Source: Chlorobiota bacterium
Lineage (GTDB): Bacteria > Bacteroidota > Ignavibacteria > OLB7
Direction of reading: 5' to 3'
DNA: 64,000 bases
Assembly: GCA_028287785.1 (NCBI GenBank)
Contig: JAQBOZ010000005.1
Location: 62,001 to 126,000 of the forward strand
The notes beneath the pieces were generated by a model that was not told the origin of the DNA, did not search any database, and saw only the letters and a program-made list of their open reading frames with translations. Both the position numbers and the translations under genes were made by a program. Below are positions 3,749 to 64,000 of the stretch, piece after piece. Every line of letters starts with the position of its first letter. The stretch's first letter is position 1.

Positions 3749-4044
3749 GGTAGTGACTCAAGTTGAGATAAGCGTCAGGAGCCTCGGCATCGTGGGAAGT
3801 ACCAGCCTTCATAGCCCCATCGGGGCGAACCGGCTGGAGCAATGCCACGTTGCCTGTTGATCCCACGCTCCATCGGAGCGTACCGTTCCGCCTGGATGCG
3901 GGGGGGGTACGCTCCGATGGAGCTTGAGTGGGAAGAGGGAACATCGTTGCTACAACCGGCGCGCTCCTACGGAGCTTGAAGCGTGGTGAAGAGAGGGATG
4001 ATCGCGCCGTGGAGCGGAGGCTGGATTCAAACTGAGTCACTACG
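3749..4044. repeat. Miniature inverted-repeat element, copy A (full length)
   Basis: The copy begins GGTAGTGACTCA and ends TGAGTCACTAC, the terminal inverted repeats of the family. The interior holds the family's hairpins (GCCCCATCGGGGC; GCTCCATCGGAGC facing GCTCCGATGGAGC; and CATCGTTGCTACAACCGGC). The flanking 8-mers share only their first four bases (GAAC), so a target duplication is not clear for this copy. Confidence 0.8.
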
Positions 4045-5996: not shown

Positions 5997-6248
5997 GGCA
6001 GTGACTCAGTTTAAGATGCTGTGGATGATGCTCAGAATCATCTACAGCATCTGGCTTCCCAGTCCCATCGGGGGGCACCGGTTGTAGCATCGCCATGCCT
6101 CCCATGATTTCACGCTCCTCTGGAGCGTGAACGGGAAACGGAGATATCGTTGCTACAACCGGCACGCTCCTGACGGAGCTTGAAGAGAGGATCATCGATG
6201 GATCATCGCGCTATCAATCGAAGGCTGGATTCAAATTGAGTCACTACC
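5997..6248. repeat. Miniature inverted-repeat element, copy B, with 8-bp target duplication
   Basis: The left end reads GGCAGTGACTCA and the right end TGAGTCACTACC. The element is bracketed by identical 8-mers CGGCGGGA at 5989-5996 and 6249-6256, as expected for a transposition target-site duplication. Internal hairpins match copies A and C, with some deletions. It lies between cusA and the SEDS gene. Confidence 0.85.
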
Positions 6249-12522: not shown

Positions 12523-12936
12523 TCAGATCAGGAACGTGGCGTTGAACAGGTATGCGGCCTGCGCGTGATGCGCTATCGGAGGTGGATGATCTATCCAGAA
12601 ACGGCCGTGGGCATCGATGGCGTGAAGATCGATTCCGGGGACCAGCAACGTGATCAGCGCGACGAGGAGCGGCGTGAATGAGATCGCGGTCATCACCGTG
12701 GCCGTGGTATCGGCATGGATGACCGTATGCTGCTTCTGGCAGCATGGCGCCTTCTTCGGTGTCCCGTGGCAATCCTTCGCCGGCGCGGGGTCGGCCGACC
12801 GATTACACATCGGGCACGATGCCTTCATCGAGCCACGGGCATTCGCCATCTCGCACGAATAGAGCGAGACGGGCCATCCGATGGAGCCGATCAGGAGCGC
12901 GACGACGGTCGCCAGTATGATGGATGCGCGATACAT
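12523..12936 (-). CDS. Small Cys-rich exported protein heading the Cus operon
   Basis: A 137-residue protein with an N-terminal hydrophobic signal or anchor (ASIILATVVALLIGSIGWPV) and nine cysteines' worth of metal-type motifs: SCPMCN, KDCHG and PCCQKQH. A second hydrophobic stretch follows (TPLLVALITLLVPGI). It lies 176 bases upstream of cusC in the same direction. Bacteroidota efflux loci often carry a comparable short Cys/His protein (the 'HYC_CC_PP' family) at this place. Membership is plausible but not proven by eye. A role as copper/silver sensor, chaperone or sequestering protein is inferred from context. Confidence 0.65.
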   Translation of the reverse strand: MYRASIILATVVALLIGSIGWPVSLYSCEMANARGSMKASCPMCNRSADPAPAKDCHGTPKKAPCCQKQHTVIHADTTATVMTAISFTPLLVALITLLVPGIDLHAIDAHGRFWIDHPPPIAHHAQAAYLFNATFLI

Positions 12937-12988
12937 TGGGGATCAAGATAGCACGGAAGAAAACGGATAGCAACCACGGTTTGAAACG

Positions 12989-13292
12989 GGTAGTGACTCA
13001 GTTTGAGATGCTGTGGATGATGCCCGGAGTCATATACGGCATCTGGATTCCCAGCCCCAGCGGGGCGTACCGGTTGTAGCATCGCCATGCCTCCCATGAT
13101 TCCAAGCTCCAGAGGAGCGTACCATCCTCGCATGCCGGGGGAATGGTTCGCTCCTCTGGAGCTTGAGCCGAAAATGGGAGCATCGTTGCTACAACCGGCA
13201 CGCTCCTGACGGAGCTTGAAGAGTGATCAGAGGATCGCCGATGGAGCATTGCGCTGTCAACCGGAGGGCCGGACTTAACCCGAGTCACTACC
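12989..13292. repeat. Miniature inverted-repeat element, copy C, with 8-bp target duplication
   Basis: The left end reads GGTAGTGACTCAGTTTGAG and the right end CGAGTCACTACC. It is bracketed by perfect direct repeats TTGAAACG at 12981-12988 and 13293-13300. The interior carries the full set of family hairpins (GCCCCAGCGGGGC; AGCTCCAGAGGAGCGT facing CGCTCCTCTGGAGCT; GTTGCTACAACCGG). It separates the head of the Cus operon from the PBP gene and is the best-preserved copy in the window. Confidence 0.9.
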
Positions 13293-13311
13293 TTGAAACG
13301 GAAAGCGGCGC

Positions 13312-14895
13312 TTACGGCTTCTTCGCGCTCCCCTTCGCCGGCGGTCGCACCGGAGCGGGCGGAGCAGCCGCCTTATAGTATCCGAGCCCATCGAGCGCCT
13401 CGTACATCCTTCGCGCCATCGGCGCGTTGAGGGAGCCGGCGAAGAGGCCGCGACGGTTCTGGATCGCCACCACCACCGCGTAGGTCCGGCCGTTCTTCCG
13501 GCCGTACGAGATAAACCACGACGGCTCGCGACCATCCGGCTCCATGTCCGCCGTTCCGGTCTTGCCGAAGATGGTGATGCCGCGCGCAATCGGCCCGCCG
13601 AACGCCCCGGCCGCCGTTCCCCCCGGAAGAAGCGGCTCGCGGAGAAGCGCCTCCACGCGCGACGCCGTGCCGTTGTCCATCCGCCATTTGAGCGTATCGG
13701 GAGGCCGGCCCACTTCGAGCGTCGGACGGTAGAAGAGCCCTCCGTTGGCGATCCCCGCCAGCATCGTCGCCATATGAACCGGGTTCGTCTTGACCGATGC
13801 CTGCCCGATGCCGAGCCGGGACTTCGCGATCTCATCCCTCCCCTTCACCCAGCTTCGCGCCGGCAGGAGCGTGGCGTACTCGTTCAGGAAAATCCCCGTG
13901 TTCCAACGGAGCCGGTCATCGAAGCCGATGCCGTCGAGATAGCTTTTCGTGGCGTCGAAGCCGATGATCTGGTAGGCGAGCTTTGAGAAGTAGATGTTGC
14001 AGGAGTAGCGCATCGCCCGCGCGATATCCACCGCGCCGTGAGCGGAGCCATGCTCGGTGATCGGCCTGGTGTCCGGGATCGGAACATAGCTGCCGGTGCA
14101 GACGAAGCCGTTGAACTCCGGAAGCGTCGCGTTGAGATGATATGCCGCCGCCGCCACAAACGGCTTGATCGATGAGCCCGGAGAGAAGTTGTCCTTGATG
14201 GCGCGCGATGTCAGCGGCCGCCGGATGGTGTCCACCACGAAGCGCTTCCAGGCGGGATCGCTCCAGATGCTGTTGGGATCGTACGTCGGGTTGTTGGCCG
14301 CGACAAGGACCTCGCCGTTCGATGCGTCCATCACCACGATCGCGCCGATATCGTTGCCCAGCGCCGCCAGCGCCTCACGTTGCAGCCGGAGATCGAGCGA
14401 GAGGCTTACATCGTGCGGCATGTCGTCGCGAAGGGAATCGTTCACCATCGTCAGCGCCTTCTCCACGCCGACGCCGTCGCGCAACGGCCCGGTCCAGTAG
14501 CCGACGATATGCGCCGTCGCGCCGCCACCCGGATATGTTCTCCGGAGATGACCGCTCAGCTTGTACCCCGCCAGCAGCGCCCCGTTGCGATCGAGGATCT
14601 TCCCGAGCGGCTGCGCGAGCGACCGGAAGCGGCTCTTGTCGTCGTAGCCGAGCGAGATGGAATCCCCCGGAACCCGGCCGTGCGTGATCCACCGCTCGCG
14701 CTCCGGAGTCATATACGATGTCGATCTGTAGAGCAGTCCACCCAGAGCCCCGAGCGCGGCAATCCCCAGCACCACCCTGGCGCCGTACCCCTTCAACGCC
14801 CGCAGGCTCTCGAAGACGCCCCCGTACTGGAAGAGCAGGATCAGAATCAGAATCCCCAGGAGGATCAGAAGGATATGAGAAAGGGAGATCGGCAT
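13312..14895 (-). CDS. Class B penicillin-binding protein (PbpA/FtsI-like transpeptidase)
   Basis: A 527-residue protein anchored by two N-terminal helices (residues 5-27 and 42-62), with a transpeptidase domain facing the periplasm. Active-site motifs are seen: SxxK in FSPGSSIKPF, SxN as YSCN, and KTG in FGKTGTAD. The non-catalytic part is short, as in actinobacterial PbpA. It cross-links peptidoglycan and would partner a SEDS glycosyltransferase such as the one at 4142. It starts 15 bases after the VanW stop, so it is the last gene of the kinase-phosphatase-FHA-methyltransferase-VanW run. Confidence 0.93.
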   Translation of the reverse strand: MPISLSHILLILLGILILILLFQYGGVFESLRALKGYGARVVLGIAALGALGGLLYRSTSYMTPERERWITHGRVPGDSISLGYDDKSRFRSLAQPLGKILDRNGALLAGYKLSGHLRRTYPGGGATAHIVGYWTGPLRDGVGVEKALTMVNDSLRDDMPHDVSLSLDLRLQREALAALGNDIGAIVVMDASNGEVLVAANNPTYDPNSIWSDPAWKRFVVDTIRRPLTSRAIKDNFSPGSSIKPFVAAAAYHLNATLPEFNGFVCTGSYVPIPDTRPITEHGSAHGAVDIARAMRYSCNIYFSKLAYQIIGFDATKSYLDGIGFDDRLRWNTGIFLNEYATLLPARSWVKGRDEIAKSRLGIGQASVKTNPVHMATMLAGIANGGLFYRPTLEVGRPPDTLKWRMDNGTASRVEALLREPLLPGGTAAGAFGGPIARGITIFGKTGTADMEPDGREPSWFISYGRKNGRTYAVVVAIQNRRGLFAGSLNAPMARRMYEALDGLGYYKAAAPPAPVRPPAKGSAKKP

Positions 14896-27794: not shown

Positions 27795-27800
27795 GATATC

Positions 27801-27977
27801 GGAGCGTACCATCCTCGCATGACGGCAAAATGGTTCGCTCCGATGGAGCTTGAGCGGGAAATGGGAACATCGTTGCTACAACCGGCACGCTCCTGACGGG
27901 GCTTGAAGAGTGATCAGAGGATCGTCGATGGATCATTGCGCTGTCAACCGGAGAGCTGGATTAAACTGAGTCACTAC
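27801..27977. repeat. Miniature element, copy D (left end missing)
   Basis: Only the right part of the element is present, from the GGAGCGTACCATCC arm through GTTGCTACAACCGGC to the terminal TGAGTCACTAC. It starts right after the ggt stop codon and runs into the trmO leader. Confidence 0.8.
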
Positions 27978-28067
27978 ATGACTCCGCTGAATATTTTCCA
28001 ATCGCCCGGGTGGATCTATCTTGATGCTTCGATCGCATCAATCCTTACCCGCGTCACAGCAACTCAG

Positions 28068-28889
28068 ATGATCAGCACATCCTCCTTTACCGTCGAACCG
28101 ATCGGCCATATCCGCACCCCGTTCACCGAGCGTTATACGGCGCCCCGGCAGCCGGGGGCGGACGCCGGTGAATCCACGGGAAAAATCGTTCTGCTCCCCG
28201 GCCACAACTTTCAGCAGGCGCTGGAGGATCTGGCGGGGTTCGAGATGATCTGGATCATCTCATGGTTTCATCGCAACGATGGATGGAAGCCGAAGGTGCT
28301 GCCGCCGCGCGGCGGGCGGAAGAAACGGGGCGTCTTCGCGACACGTTCGCCGCACCGGCCCAACCCGATCGGGCTTTCGCTGGTGCGGCTTGTCGGCATT
28401 CGCGGACGGATCATCGACGTAGGCGCCACCGATCTGCTCGATGGAACGCCGGTGATCGATATCAAGCCGTATATCCCGACTGTCGACGCGTTTCCCGATG
28501 CCCGCGCCGGATGGCTGGAGGATGTGATCGTGATGGAGCATGAGATCTCCGAAGGGGGGGCGCTCTTCGCGGTGGAGTGGACGCCGCTCGCGCTCGAACA
28601 AACGGAATGGCTCCAACGCCGACATAACATCGATCTGGCCGATCTCGCCACCTCGGTTCTCCGTCGCAACGCCACGCCGCACCCCTACCGTCGTATAACG
28701 CAACTGCCGGACGGCGCGCTCCAGCTTGCGATCAAATCGTGGAGGCTCAGGTTCACCGAACGTGGCGGGACCGTGACGGTGGAACGGATCGCGAGCGGAT
28801 ACGGCGTGGCGGCGCTGGCGGCTGCCGGAGCCGGGGAGCTTCACGACCACGCGGCGCATCTCGAATTTCACGATCGGTGGCCGGCGTGA
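28068..28889 (+). CDS. trmO: tRNA (N6-threonylcarbamoyladenosine(37)-N6)-methyltransferase TrmO
   Basis: A 273-residue TsaA/YaeB-like methyltransferase acting on t6A37 of tRNAs reading ACY codons. Family motifs are present: VEPIGHIRTPF, GFEMIWIISWFHR, VFATRSPHRPNPIGLS, LDGTPVIDIKPYIP. The start at 28068 (MISTSSFTVEPIGHI) places the motif where the family has it. Starts further upstream would translate the end of the miniature element. The C-terminal extension of about 100 residues, with PYRRI followed by LAIKSWRLRF, corresponds to the small TrmO C-terminal domain. Confidence 0.92.
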   Translation: MISTSSFTVEPIGHIRTPFTERYTAPRQPGADAGESTGKIVLLPGHNFQQALEDLAGFEMIWIISWFHRNDGWKPKVLPPRGGRKKRGVFATRSPHRPNPIGLSLVRLVGIRGRIIDVGATDLLDGTPVIDIKPYIPTVDAFPDARAGWLEDVIVMEHEISEGGALFAVEWTPLALEQTEWLQRRHNIDLADLATSVLRRNATPHPYRRITQLPDGALQLAIKSWRLRFTERGGTVTVERIASGYGVAALAAAGAGELHDHAAHLEFHDRWPA

Positions 28890-28926: not shown

Positions 28927-30501
28927 GTGATCGCGCTCGACTCAAAACAGCTCCGCCATATCATCCTGGGGATCGCCCTGATCGCCGGGGTATTTTTTTT
29001 CCGGTTCACCGCCGACGATGGATACATCACCGCGCGGTACGCCGAGCATCTGGTTGATACCGGCGCGCTTGTCTTCAATTCCGGCGAACGGGTCAGCGCG
29101 CTTACATCGCCGCTGCACGCCATCGTGGAGGCGGGGCTGTATGCCGTCACCGGGCAGACCATCATCGCCTACAAACTGCTGGCTGCGCTTCTGCTTCTCA
29201 CCGCCGGGTTTGTTCTGACTTCCCGCTTTCCCGATCACAGGATCGTGGTGCCCCTCACCTGCCTCTCCCCCCAGGTTCTTCTCTGGACATTCGGCGGGCT
29301 GGAGACGCCGATACTGCTGCTGCTGATCGCGCTCTTCGCGATCACCGCGCACGCCGGTGGCGCATCCGATCGTCGCCGGCTTCTCCTTCTCTCGGTCATC
29401 GCCGGCATCGCATTTATCACCCGGTTCGATTCGGCGCTCTTCACCGCCCCGGTGCTGATCCACGCCGCGCTGAAGAATCGGCGGGCGGGGGAGATTGCCA
29501 GAGCGATCGGCATCGGCGCAGTCATCCCGGTCGCGTGGATCGCGTTCGCGGCGCTCTACTACGGCGATGTTTTTCCGACATCGTTCTACGTGAAGACGCC
29601 GACGCTTCACGGCGAGCGGATGCTGGAATGCGCGGTGAACATCATCGAGTTTCTTCTCTTCACCGGATTTCTTCCGTTGATGATCGGCGGCGTGCTGATT
29701 GCGCGGAGGTATCTGCCGGATGCGCTGCGCGATCACCTGCGGCGCGTTCTTCCGCTGCTGGTGGGGCTTGGGGCGATCATCGCGTACGGCCAGTTGACCG
29801 GGATGATCCACATGATGTTCTCCTTCCGAATGTTCGTCCCCTATGTCCCGGCGCTGGCGGTTATCATCTGCGATTTATTGGGTCGCCTCCGCGAGCCGAT
29901 CGCCACGATCATGGCGTCGCCGCGCGGCCGTGTCATCATCACTTCCCTGCTTCTGCTCGCCATCGCGTTTCAGGGAACGGAGAGCTGGGTGATCTATTCG
30001 CGGTCGCTCAACGGCGTCAGCATCGTTGGGGAGTACCGGCATATCGGGATCGCGGGATACATGGATGATTTCATACCGGCGCTCTTTGCCGGCGGTGATG
30101 ATATCGCCTCGCACTGGAAAAGCACGGCGGATTCCGGCCGGGCGCCGCGGGTGATGACATTCGCTGCCGGGGCGCTGCCGTATCGATATCGCGCCGCGTA
30201 CATCTTCGAGCCGCTTGTCTCCTACCGTCGCTCCTGCAAGGCCACCGGCGCTGAATCGGCGGACTACATTCATCTGCTTGTCGCCACGCTGGACGAGGCG
30301 GCCGCGTTGCTCCCGAAGCCGATCGGGCATTATCAGATGGTATCCTATCGTACAATCATCTTCGACGGCGCGCCGCGGAGCTTTATCGTCCTGTACGATC
30401 CCGACCCCGGCTGCAATCCCCTCCCGCCGACCGTCAACGGCCCCTGCGCCGACTGCACCGATGAACACACCGTCGGCAACGAGATACGATACGACCGGTG
30501 A
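28927..30501 (+). CDS. GT-C-type membrane glycosyltransferase-like protein
   Basis: A 524-residue integral membrane protein with about 9-10 helices, starting with GTG. After the first helix it has FTADDGYITARYAEHLVDTG, then VFNSGERVSALTSPLHAI. This is the acidic first-loop pattern of polyprenyl-phosphate-dependent GT-C sugar transferases (compare 'DDAyItfRya.nl..G.Glvfn.ge.v.gytspl'). A soluble C-terminal part follows (about residues 370-524). The donor is probably a lipid-linked sugar and the acceptor is an envelope molecule. The exact reaction is unknown. Confidence 0.8.
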   Translation: MIALDSKQLRHIILGIALIAGVFFFRFTADDGYITARYAEHLVDTGALVFNSGERVSALTSPLHAIVEAGLYAVTGQTIIAYKLLAALLLLTAGFVLTSRFPDHRIVVPLTCLSPQVLLWTFGGLETPILLLLIALFAITAHAGGASDRRRLLLLSVIAGIAFITRFDSALFTAPVLIHAALKNRRAGEIARAIGIGAVIPVAWIAFAALYYGDVFPTSFYVKTPTLHGERMLECAVNIIEFLLFTGFLPLMIGGVLIARRYLPDALRDHLRRVLPLLVGLGAIIAYGQLTGMIHMMFSFRMFVPYVPALAVIICDLLGRLREPIATIMASPRGRVIITSLLLLAIAFQGTESWVIYSRSLNGVSIVGEYRHIGIAGYMDDFIPALFAGGDDIASHWKSTADSGRAPRVMTFAAGALPYRYRAAYIFEPLVSYRRSCKATGAESADYIHLLVATLDEAAALLPKPIGHYQMVSYRTIIFDGAPRSFIVLYDPDPGCNPLPPTVNGPCADCTDEHTVGNEIRYDR

Positions 30502-30842: not shown

Positions 30843-32513
30843 ATGAGCGATACCAAGATTATTTTTTCCATGATAGGCGTCGGCAAGGTGCACAAGCCGA
30901 ACAAGCAGGTACTGAAGGATATCTACCTCTCCTTTTTCTATGGCGCGAAGATCGGCGTGCTGGGCCTCAACGGCTCGGGAAAGAGCACGCTGCTGAAGAT
31001 CATCGCCGGCCTTGACAAGGATTACGTGGGGCAGATCAACTCGCAGAAGGGGATCACCTTCGGCTATCTCTCGCAGGAGCCGGAGCTGGACCCGACCAAG
31101 ACGGTGAAGGAAGTGGTCGAGGAGGGAGCGCAGGAGACGGTGAACCTCTTGAAGGAGTACGAGGAGATCAACGCGCAGTTCTCCGAGCCGGACGCCGATT
31201 TCGACGCGCTGCTGGCGAAGCAGAGCAAGTTGCAGGAGAAGATCGATCATCTGGACGCGTGGGATATCGACAGCAAGCTGGAGATGGCGATGGAAGCCCT
31301 CCGCTGTCCCGACGGCGATACCCCCGTCACCGTCCTCTCCGGCGGTGAGCGCCGCCGCGTCGCACTCTGCCGCCTTCTGCTTCAGGAGCCGGACGTGCTG
31401 CTGCTGGACGAGCCGACAAACCATCTGGACGCCGAGTCCGTGGCGTGGCTGGAGAGCCATCTTGCCAAGTACAAGGGAACGGTGATCGCCGTAACGCACG
31501 ATCGCTACTTCCTGGATAATGTGGCCGGCTGGATTCTGGAGCTGGATCGCGGCCAGGGGATTCCGTTCGAGGGAAATTATTCATCGTGGCTGGAGCAGAA
31601 GAAGCGCCGGCTGGAGCTTGAGGAGAAGCAGGAATCCAAGCGTCAGAAGGCGCTGGCCGAGGAGCTGGAATGGGTCCGCACCAACCCGAAGGGACGCCAC
31701 GCCAAGAGCAAGGCGCGCATTTCATCGTACGAGAAGATGCTCTCCGAGGAGAACGAGAAGCGGAACGAGGAGATGGAGATCTTCATCCCGAACGGCCCCC
31801 GTCTCGGCGATGTTGTGATCGACGCGAACGATGTGGCGAAAGCCTTCGGCGATAATCTCCTCTACGAACATCTCACCTTCTCCCTCCCCCCCGGCGGCAT
31901 CATCGGCATCATCGGGCCGAATGGCGCCGGCAAGACGACGCTCTTCAAGATGATCACCGAACGGGAGACGGTGGACGCCGGAACGTTCAAGATCGGCGAG
32001 ACGGTGAAGCTGGGCTATATCGATCAGAACCGCCCGCTCGATCCCGAGAAAACGATCTGGGAGGAGATCTCCGGCGGGCTCGATCTTATCCTCCTGGGAA
32101 ACCGCGAGGTGAACTCCCGCGCGTACGTGGCCCGCTTCAACTTCGGCGGACAGGATCAGCAGAAGAAGATCGGCATGCTCTCCGGCGGCGAGCGAAACCG
32201 CGTCCATCTTGCCAAGGCGCTGAAGGAGGGAGCAAACGTTCTCCTGCTGGATGAGCCCACCAACGATCTGGACGTGAACACGCTCCGCGCGCTCGAGGAG
32301 GCGCTGATGAGCTTCGCCGGCTGCGCCGTGATCATCTCGCATGATCGCTGGTTTCTGGATCGCGTCGCCACGCATATCCTCGCATTCGAGGGGGATAGCG
32401 AGGTGCTCTGGTTCGACGGCAACTACTCGCAGTACGAGGAGGACCGCAAGCGGCGGCTGGGGATCGAGGCGGATCAGCCGCATCGGATCAAGTATAAGCC
32501 TTTGGTCCGCTGA
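30843..32513 (+). CDS. ettA: Energy-dependent translational throttle protein EttA (ABC-F)
   Basis: A 556-residue cytoplasmic ABC-F ATPase that binds the ribosomal E site and gates the first elongation step according to ATP level. It has two nucleotide-binding domains and no membrane part: GLNGSGKST with LSGGERRR and LLLDEPTNHLD in the first, GPNGAGKTT with LSGGERNR and LLLDEPTNDLD in the second. The linker between them (WVRTNPKGRHAKSKARISSY) is the P-site tRNA interaction motif region typical of EttA. Length and the near-identical N-terminus (MIGVGKVHKPNKQVLKDIYL) leave little doubt. A terminator-like hairpin follows. Confidence 0.96.
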   Translation: MSDTKIIFSMIGVGKVHKPNKQVLKDIYLSFFYGAKIGVLGLNGSGKSTLLKIIAGLDKDYVGQINSQKGITFGYLSQEPELDPTKTVKEVVEEGAQETVNLLKEYEEINAQFSEPDADFDALLAKQSKLQEKIDHLDAWDIDSKLEMAMEALRCPDGDTPVTVLSGGERRRVALCRLLLQEPDVLLLDEPTNHLDAESVAWLESHLAKYKGTVIAVTHDRYFLDNVAGWILELDRGQGIPFEGNYSSWLEQKKRRLELEEKQESKRQKALAEELEWVRTNPKGRHAKSKARISSYEKMLSEENEKRNEEMEIFIPNGPRLGDVVIDANDVAKAFGDNLLYEHLTFSLPPGGIIGIIGPNGAGKTTLFKMITERETVDAGTFKIGETVKLGYIDQNRPLDPEKTIWEEISGGLDLILLGNREVNSRAYVARFNFGGQDQQKKIGMLSGGERNRVHLAKALKEGANVLLLDEPTNDLDVNTLRALEEALMSFAGCAVIISHDRWFLDRVATHILAFEGDSEVLWFDGNYSQYEEDRKRRLGIEADQPHRIKYKPLVR

Positions 32514-36403: not shown

Positions 36404-36433
36404 TGTCTCCCGTTCATTCAGGCAGGATAGCAT

Positions 36434-36664
36434 CAGTCTTCATAGCCCCAGCGGGGCGAGCCGGTTGTAGTAATGTCATATTCAAGCTCCATCGGAGCGC
36501 ACCATTCGGCCTGCATGCGGGGATGGTGTGCTCCAATGGAGCTTGATCGGAAAATGGGAGCATCGTTGCTACAACCGGCGCGCTCCTGACGGAGCTTGAA
36601 GAGTGGATCGTCGATGGACCATTGCGCTGTCAATCGGAGGGCTGGATTCAAATTGAGTCACTAC
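36434..36664. repeat. Miniature element, copy E (left end missing)
   Basis: It begins at the AGTCTTCATAGCCCCAGCGG block and runs through the paired GCTCCATCGGAGC / GCTCCAATGGAGC arms and GTTGCTACAACCGGC to TTGAGTCACTAC. The GGTAGTGACTCA left terminus is absent. A family 2 repeat lies directly before it. Confidence 0.8.
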
Positions 36665-36716
36665 TCGATAACGCGCACATGGCCCCGCGATTCCTGAAAA
36701 TTCATAACTTCACGGA

Positions 36717-63808: not shown

Positions 63809-64000
63809 CAGTGGCAACTCAGTATTCGATGAGTTTCATAATGATCAGAATCATGTCCATCATCCGGCATCCCTCTCCAAGCCCCATCGGGGCGAACCGG
63901 TTGTAGCAATGCCACGTGTTCCATAATCTCAAGCTCCATCGGAGCGTGCCATTCGGCATGGATGCGAAGATGGTTCGCTCCCACGGAGCTTGAGCGGGAA
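63809..64000. repeat. Miniature element, copy F (cut by window edge)
   Basis: It begins with a diverged left end (CAGTGGCAACTCAG) and continues with the family's interior: AGCCCCATCGGGGCG, GGTTGTAGCAATGCCAC, AAGCTCCATCGGAGCGTGC and its facing arm. It runs off the window end before the right terminus. Confidence 0.75.

Follow-up and report, generated by a model that had tools for sequence, protein, structure and literature searches.

A family of miniature inverted-repeat elements in a Chlorobiota bacterium, with 8-bp target duplications and a probable IS1-type partner transposase

What is the short, hairpin-rich segment that lies between two identical 8-mers in a Chlorobiota genome, and what could have moved it there? 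The segment (named copy C) is located in a window of 64,000 nucleotides (C35:62001-126000 of G000, a genome of 4.75 Mb in 37 contigs that is about 95% complete). An initial annotation of the window regarded it as a miniature non-autonomous element (MITE) and reported perfect 8-bp target duplications on its two sides. The duplications are indeed present, with TTGAAACG on both sides and all eight bases matching (Table 1). The terminal inverted repeats that had been reported are exact over 11 bp (GGTAGTGACTC), but the 12-bp pair that was quoted is not, as base 12 is A on the left and G on the right. The absence of a protein gene was also correctly recognised. The sole spanning ORF (12998-13288, 96 aa) cannot be conserved, because the copies are 298, 300, 303, 304, 305, 307 and 309 bp long and these differences are not multiples of three.

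Table 1. Positions of copy C and its parts, of the other copies in the window, and of the three transposase-bearing elements of other bacteria in which both ends are exactly GGTAGTGACTCA
Feature	Position	Strand	Remarks
MITE copy C	12989..13292	+	304 bp, non-coding, several internal hairpins; full-length copies in the genome at most 89% identical
Left target-site duplication TTGAAACG of copy C	12981..12988	.	identical to 13293-13300 (8/8)
Right target-site duplication TTGAAACG of copy C	13293..13300	.	8/8 match to 12981-12988
Left terminal inverted repeat GGTAGTGACTC of copy C	12989..12999	+	exact reverse complement of 13282-13292
Right terminal inverted repeat of copy C	13282..13292	-	exact reverse complement of 12989-12999
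Central hairpin of copy C, arms around AAGCTCCAGAGGAGCG / CGCTCCTCTGGAGCTT	13100..13170 (limits approximate)	+	predicted fold
Second full copy, 252 bp, perfect duplication CGGCGGGA	5997..6248	+	window scan and genome copy table
Third full-length copy, 296 bp, duplication decayed (4/8)	3749..4044	+	window scan and genome copy table
Partial copy, right part, right end TGTAGTGACTCAGTTTAATC	27798..27978	+	window scan
Partial copy, right part, right end AGTAGTGACTCAATTTGAAT	36430..36665	+	window scan
Partial copy, cut by window end	63862..64000	+	window scan
Element L243	Acidobacteria, PMUS01000093		2302 bp; duplication GCGCGCCA
Element L267	Verrucomicrobia, QHNT01000261		2536 bp; duplication CATTCCGC; end GGTAGTGACTCAGTTTGAA
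Element L306	Acidobacteria, JAKAUB010000249		2341 bp; duplication GTGGAGCG

Two minus-strand reading frames flank copy C: on one side a transpeptidase-like gene (13312-14895), which has its stop towards the element, and on the other a 137-aa ORF (12523-12936), whose start codon is 44 bp downstream of copy C (the gap between 12936 and 12981 of the window). The transpeptidase gene is conserved in G001, G003 and G004 (60-72% identity), and the gene across the element was not found adjoining it there. Copy C may have displaced the promoter of the 137-aa ORF.

Searching the whole genome with copy C, a check suggested in the initial annotation, revealed a family of roughly 140-190 copies in this bacterium. 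A first-look element search gave 186 candidate copies. The 16-base core of the internal hairpin (AAGCTCCNNNGGAGCG) occurs 264 times, and the first ~101 of these matches form 54 clusters by our count, which scales to about 140 copies. We tabulated 58 bounded copies, a few of them doubtful. The end GGTAGTGACTC has 102 matches in the genome (50 forward and 52 reverse) versus none for the reversed control pattern, indicating that the ends of copy C are not due to chance. Copies chosen by their ends are 180-312 bp long, apart from one of 485 bp, and have no conserved ORF. The family comprises at least two age classes: the C-like copies are 304 bp long and up to 89% identical to copy C, and the Y copies are 309 bp long, with 17 of them being 92-97% identical to the copy L072. 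Fourteen contig ends fall inside Y-like copies, as expected of near-identical repeats. Two such ends, on contigs C18 and C19, share the 8-mer CCATTTCC, as would be the case if a single insertion lay between them. With an estimated 150 copies of about 300 bp, the family makes up about 1% of the genome; it interrupts the assembly and seems to undergo recombination.

The flanks were compared in 42 copies picked by their ends alone (two mismatches at most over both ends together, flanks ignored). The flanking 8-mers match at seven or eight positions in 23 of the 42 copies (8/8 in 12 and 7/8 in 11). In a control with flanks shifted by 3 to 11 bases (210 comparisons), no pair matched at seven or more positions and one matched at six. 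On the other hand, 12 of the 42 copies match at four positions or fewer, a finding that the initial annotation had listed as a possible refutation of past transposition. Several of the copies without matching 8-mers are accounted for by mutation, by adjacent insertions and by the exchange of flanks between copies. Some copies without a recognisable duplication adjoin another copy (for example, on C19). In element orientation, a copy on C6 (C6:48153-48461) shares its left flank GATCGCGG with the right side of a copy on C26 (C26:6057-6365) and its right flank CCATTGAG with the left side of the copy with which contig C7 begins. All three copies have perfect ends, but their flanking 8-mers are exchanged, a pattern that would be left by recombination between copies or by a chimeric assembly.

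An empty-site equivalent is available within the genome. At C2:305781-306090, a young Y copy is inserted within an old C copy. Removing the Y copy together with one 8-mer restores the old copy's hairpin without a gap, and keeping both 8-mers leaves an 8-bp insertion. This nested event is not a fresh one, as its 8-mers have diverged to 6/8.

The initial annotation stated that no matching transposase lies in the window, and the single trace in the genome (C35:28159-28344) is indeed outside it. This trace belongs to the only remnant found in our transposase search of the genome (C35:28160-31724; L317 and L179), on the same contig and about 30 kb outside the window. The relic has an end GGTAGCGAATCATTTTGA at C35:31724 and a small-gene remnant at 31375-31588. 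Its transposase is reduced to an N-terminal trace (29725-29775) and a C-terminal part (28160-28426) with stop codons, and a transposase reading frame assigned by eye to the IS3 type lies between the two halves. We looked for the far end of the relic and its duplication and did not find them. The relic end also differs from the MITE end at two of the first 12 positions, so that the relic may be only a relative of the transposon from which the MITE arose. No intact partner transposon was found in this genome, which is about 95% complete. With only this decayed relic of the transposase found, the family can probably no longer move, unless an intact transposase is encoded in the missing ~5% or arrives by horizontal transfer.

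The Y element was not found in 41 relatives, except for one 29-base match in the genus-mate G001. The 12-base end GGTAGTGACTCA occurs in G001 at 12 ends only, with an unrelated interior of ~270 bp and with 7-8/8 duplications of its own. In other families of the class, the same end bounds miniature elements of 110 bp (G034), 129 bp (G241), 153-154 bp (G257) and 213 bp (G133). Among the miniature elements of the relatives that have both ends, nearly all show 7-8/8 duplications. As these ends enclose different interiors, one end type, probably the substrate of a single kind of transposase, gave rise to different miniature families in different lineages. A 2201-bp pair of ends in G211 (L129 3253-5453) was considered as an autonomous candidate and rejected, as it contains no transposase and its adjacent 8-mers differ. 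This locus has the same 19-bp ends, a KGG-motif gene (see below) and two unknown ORFs, and its flanks share 16 of 17 bases (CTGATTTAA[G/C]ACAATTT), not as an adjacent 8-mer. Matches to GGTAGTGACTCA in several distant genomes (for example, L143, L145 and L146) have no partner end and are probably chance single sites.

A transposase gene with terminal repeats beginning GGTAGTGACTCA, which the initial annotation had proposed to look for, was found in other genomes and is of the IS1 type (L243, L267 and L306). An element of G263 beginning with GGTAGTGACTCATTTTGAAT carries a 79-aa gene, an AAA ATPase gene and a gene for a 277-aa transposase; its other end is off the contig. This transposase matches PF03400 (Pfam) above the cut-off and NF033558 (NCBIfam) below the cut-off. 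Among 15 transposase relatives, all match NF033558 (best E 4e-20) and 14 match PF03400 at E <= 0.001. One member scores 68.7 bits with NF033558, which is below the curated cut-off of 100, and 28.3 with PF03400, which passes the cut-off of 24.1. The transposase is encoded by a single ORF, and D65, D137 and E201 are invariant in the alignment (DDE). Homologues in the class are carried by elements 2.5-5.2 kb long, which have matched ends and, in most cases with both sides on the contig, perfect 8-bp duplications. We kept 80 loci in a scan of named genomes, and 57 of them have both ends and 7-8/8 duplications, in keeping with the 8- or 9-bp duplications and GG-starting ends of the IS1 family. The IS1 family is also characterised by compactness and a lack of passenger genes, which does not apply to these elements of 2.0-5.6 kb with cargo. 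The ends of the transposase-bearing elements are mostly GGTAGTG-N5-nTTTGAA, and three elements have GGTAGTGACTCA exactly at both ends (Table 1). The better-conserved end of the MITE, GGTAGTGACTCAGTTTGAAT, is the same as the L267 end over 19 bases, and GGTAGTGACTCAGTTTGAA of L267 is identical over 19 bp to common right ends of the MITE. Beyond the ends, the interior of the MITE shares nothing with the transposons.

In L173 (2428-11588) and L176 (2388-8666), two transposase-bearing elements lie side by side with one shared 8-mer (AAAATTTT and AAATATTC, respectively), as if the second element had used the same target. The ORF list of L305 (4112-9709) repeats exactly after 2803 bp, apparently representing a tandem dimer.

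From these comparisons of ends and flanks, copy C is very likely a MITE moved in trans by an IS1-type DDE transposase encoded in a single ORF, and mobilisation of the family by such an enzyme most likely occurred in at least two waves. The transposase would recognise some 20 bp at either end (on the better-conserved side, GGTAGTGACTCAnTTTGAAT) and, in cut-and-join steps, would link the ends to target strands cut 8 bp apart; filling of the gaps would then produce the 8-bp duplication. The elements are non-coding and shorter than 600 bp, have terminal inverted repeats and a duplication of fixed length (8 bp), and occur in many copies at unrelated sites. An autonomous partner with matching ends exists in other genomes, and the MITE-bearing genome itself has only the relic. 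The copy C family is a new family of a kind of MITE already known.

The interior of the MITE consists of REP-like hairpins, the units of which are predicted to pair strongly. This structure and the 264 occurrences of AAGCTCCNNNGGAGCG would suit generic REP/BIME-type palindromic repeats that are spread by a RAYT (Y1) transposase and have flanking repeats by chance. However, REP/BIME units are not known to have inverted-repeat ends or to make target duplications, whereas most copies here have sharp ends with inverted repeats and 8-bp duplications. We also sampled 17 loci having the internal hairpin but no exact end, and every one of them is a decayed copy of the same bounded element (16 have at least one recognisable end, and one was assigned by alignment over positions 5-304). 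Thus, the hairpins in this genome travel with the MITE. The nested insertion likewise contradicts the REP/BIME explanation, which we regard as highly improbable. The view of the initial annotation that copy C is a MITE and not a generic REP is therefore upheld by the ends, the duplications, the copy number, the nested filled and empty site, and the different element set in the genus-mate, which has two of the hairpins versus 264 in this genome. It is also quite unlikely that the host now retains the element for a use of its own, such as an RNA hairpin, an insulator or a terminator, with the spread of the element being secondary. The position of copy C in the 5' region of the 137-aa ORF is compatible with such a use, as is the tendency of the variable arm triplets of the central hairpin to stay complementary. 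Among 48 copies, these triplets are ATC/GAT in 23, AGA/TCT in 9 and mixed in 7 (Fisher p = 5e-4, a value that ignores relatedness and is confounded by the two subfamilies). Against a host function, the insertion sites are scattered, the copies decay freely and vary in length, the Rfam scan of the element gave no family at threshold, and a scan near copy C detected nothing resembling a promoter or terminator.

As for the enzyme, transposases of the IS1595, ISL3 and IS256 types also make duplications of about 8 bp, and the partner is not intact in this genome. A different transposase family sharing GG-starting ends and 8-bp duplications might therefore have mobilised the MITE. This alternative is unlikely, as the MITE end matches IS1-type elements over 19-20 bp, including elements with exact GGTAGTGACTCA ends and the transposase inside, and the elements examined include none of another family that has these ends. 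An IS1-type transposase thus remains the preferred candidate for the mobilisation of copy C and its relatives.

The 57 elements with both ends and duplications (among L230-L307) are IS1-type transposons of 2-5.6 kb that occur in many phyla. Their cargo is swappable and often consists of restriction-modification or other defence-like genes. A KGG-motif gene or its relative is found in 38 of the 57 elements. Located near the left end of the element (for example, L144 2827-3066 and L256 3841-4095), it encodes an ~80-aa protein containing a GGLKGGxARA motif. Two of these proteins were searched against Pfam, and neither had a match; the protein is possibly an accessory transposition factor. The sampled cargo includes MmeI-type type IIG restriction-modification enzymes, DNA methyltransferases, an Abi_2/PD-T4-5-like protein, a BRO-N protein, an ATPase matching HEC-04 and, in 16 elements, an HTH protein with an M78 peptidase (RmrA-like). 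This sample is biased, as it consists of the loci scoring best against one transposase alignment, and the ten proteins used for the defence search were chosen by hand. We tentatively suggest that the partner elements could form a group of IS1-type transposons that is widespread and has so far gone undescribed, with GGTAGTG-N5-nTTTGAA ends, 8-bp duplications, a KGG protein and swappable defence-rich cargo. Members of such a group would occur in Ignavibacteria, Acidobacteria, Nitrospirota, Proteobacteria and one archaeal bin, and might have seeded lineage-specific MITE families. In the literature that we searched, which leaves out most subscription papers and ISfinder, there is no description of the end GGTAGTGTCTCA, of IS1-type MITEs or of defence-carrying IS1-type transposons. 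If the group is indeed undescribed, its recognisable ends would allow small mobile defence cassettes to be delimited and collected across phyla, and the role of the recurrent KGG-motif protein would become testable. The partner transposons may be a more interesting discovery than the MITE and are worth a separate look.

The MITE is ordinary in kind and unusually well documented by sequence alone, in terms of its family, age classes, nested empty site, partner type and partner loss. It resembles REP/BIME repeats in having GC-rich internal hairpins and many copies, but differs from them in being bounded by inverted repeats and target duplications. The putative partners resemble the single-ORF members of the IS1 family (NF033558/PF03400) in their profile match, invariant D-D-E residues, GGT ends and 8-bp duplications. 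IS1 elements are about 0.75-1.2 kb long, whereas the partner elements are 2-5.6 kb long with cargo, have GGTAGTG-N5-nTTTGAA ends and score below the NCBI curated cut-off. Among known MITEs, MITEAba12 of Acinetobacter is 113 bp long, creates duplications of 9 bp and coexists with its partner IS, ISAba12 (PMC6382973). Both families are short and gene-less, have inverted repeats matching those of an autonomous element, target duplications and many copies, and are presumed to be mobilised in trans. The present family differs in its length (mostly 250-310 bp), its 8-bp duplications and its IS1-type partner, of which only a relic is left. Members with passenger genes, termed transporter IS (tIS), are known in a number of IS families (PMC7986276). 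The partner elements are similar to tIS in having a single transposase and passenger genes between IS ends; in contrast, passengers are the rule here and are often restriction-modification or defence-like genes, and the ~80-aa KGG-motif gene recurs near the left end.
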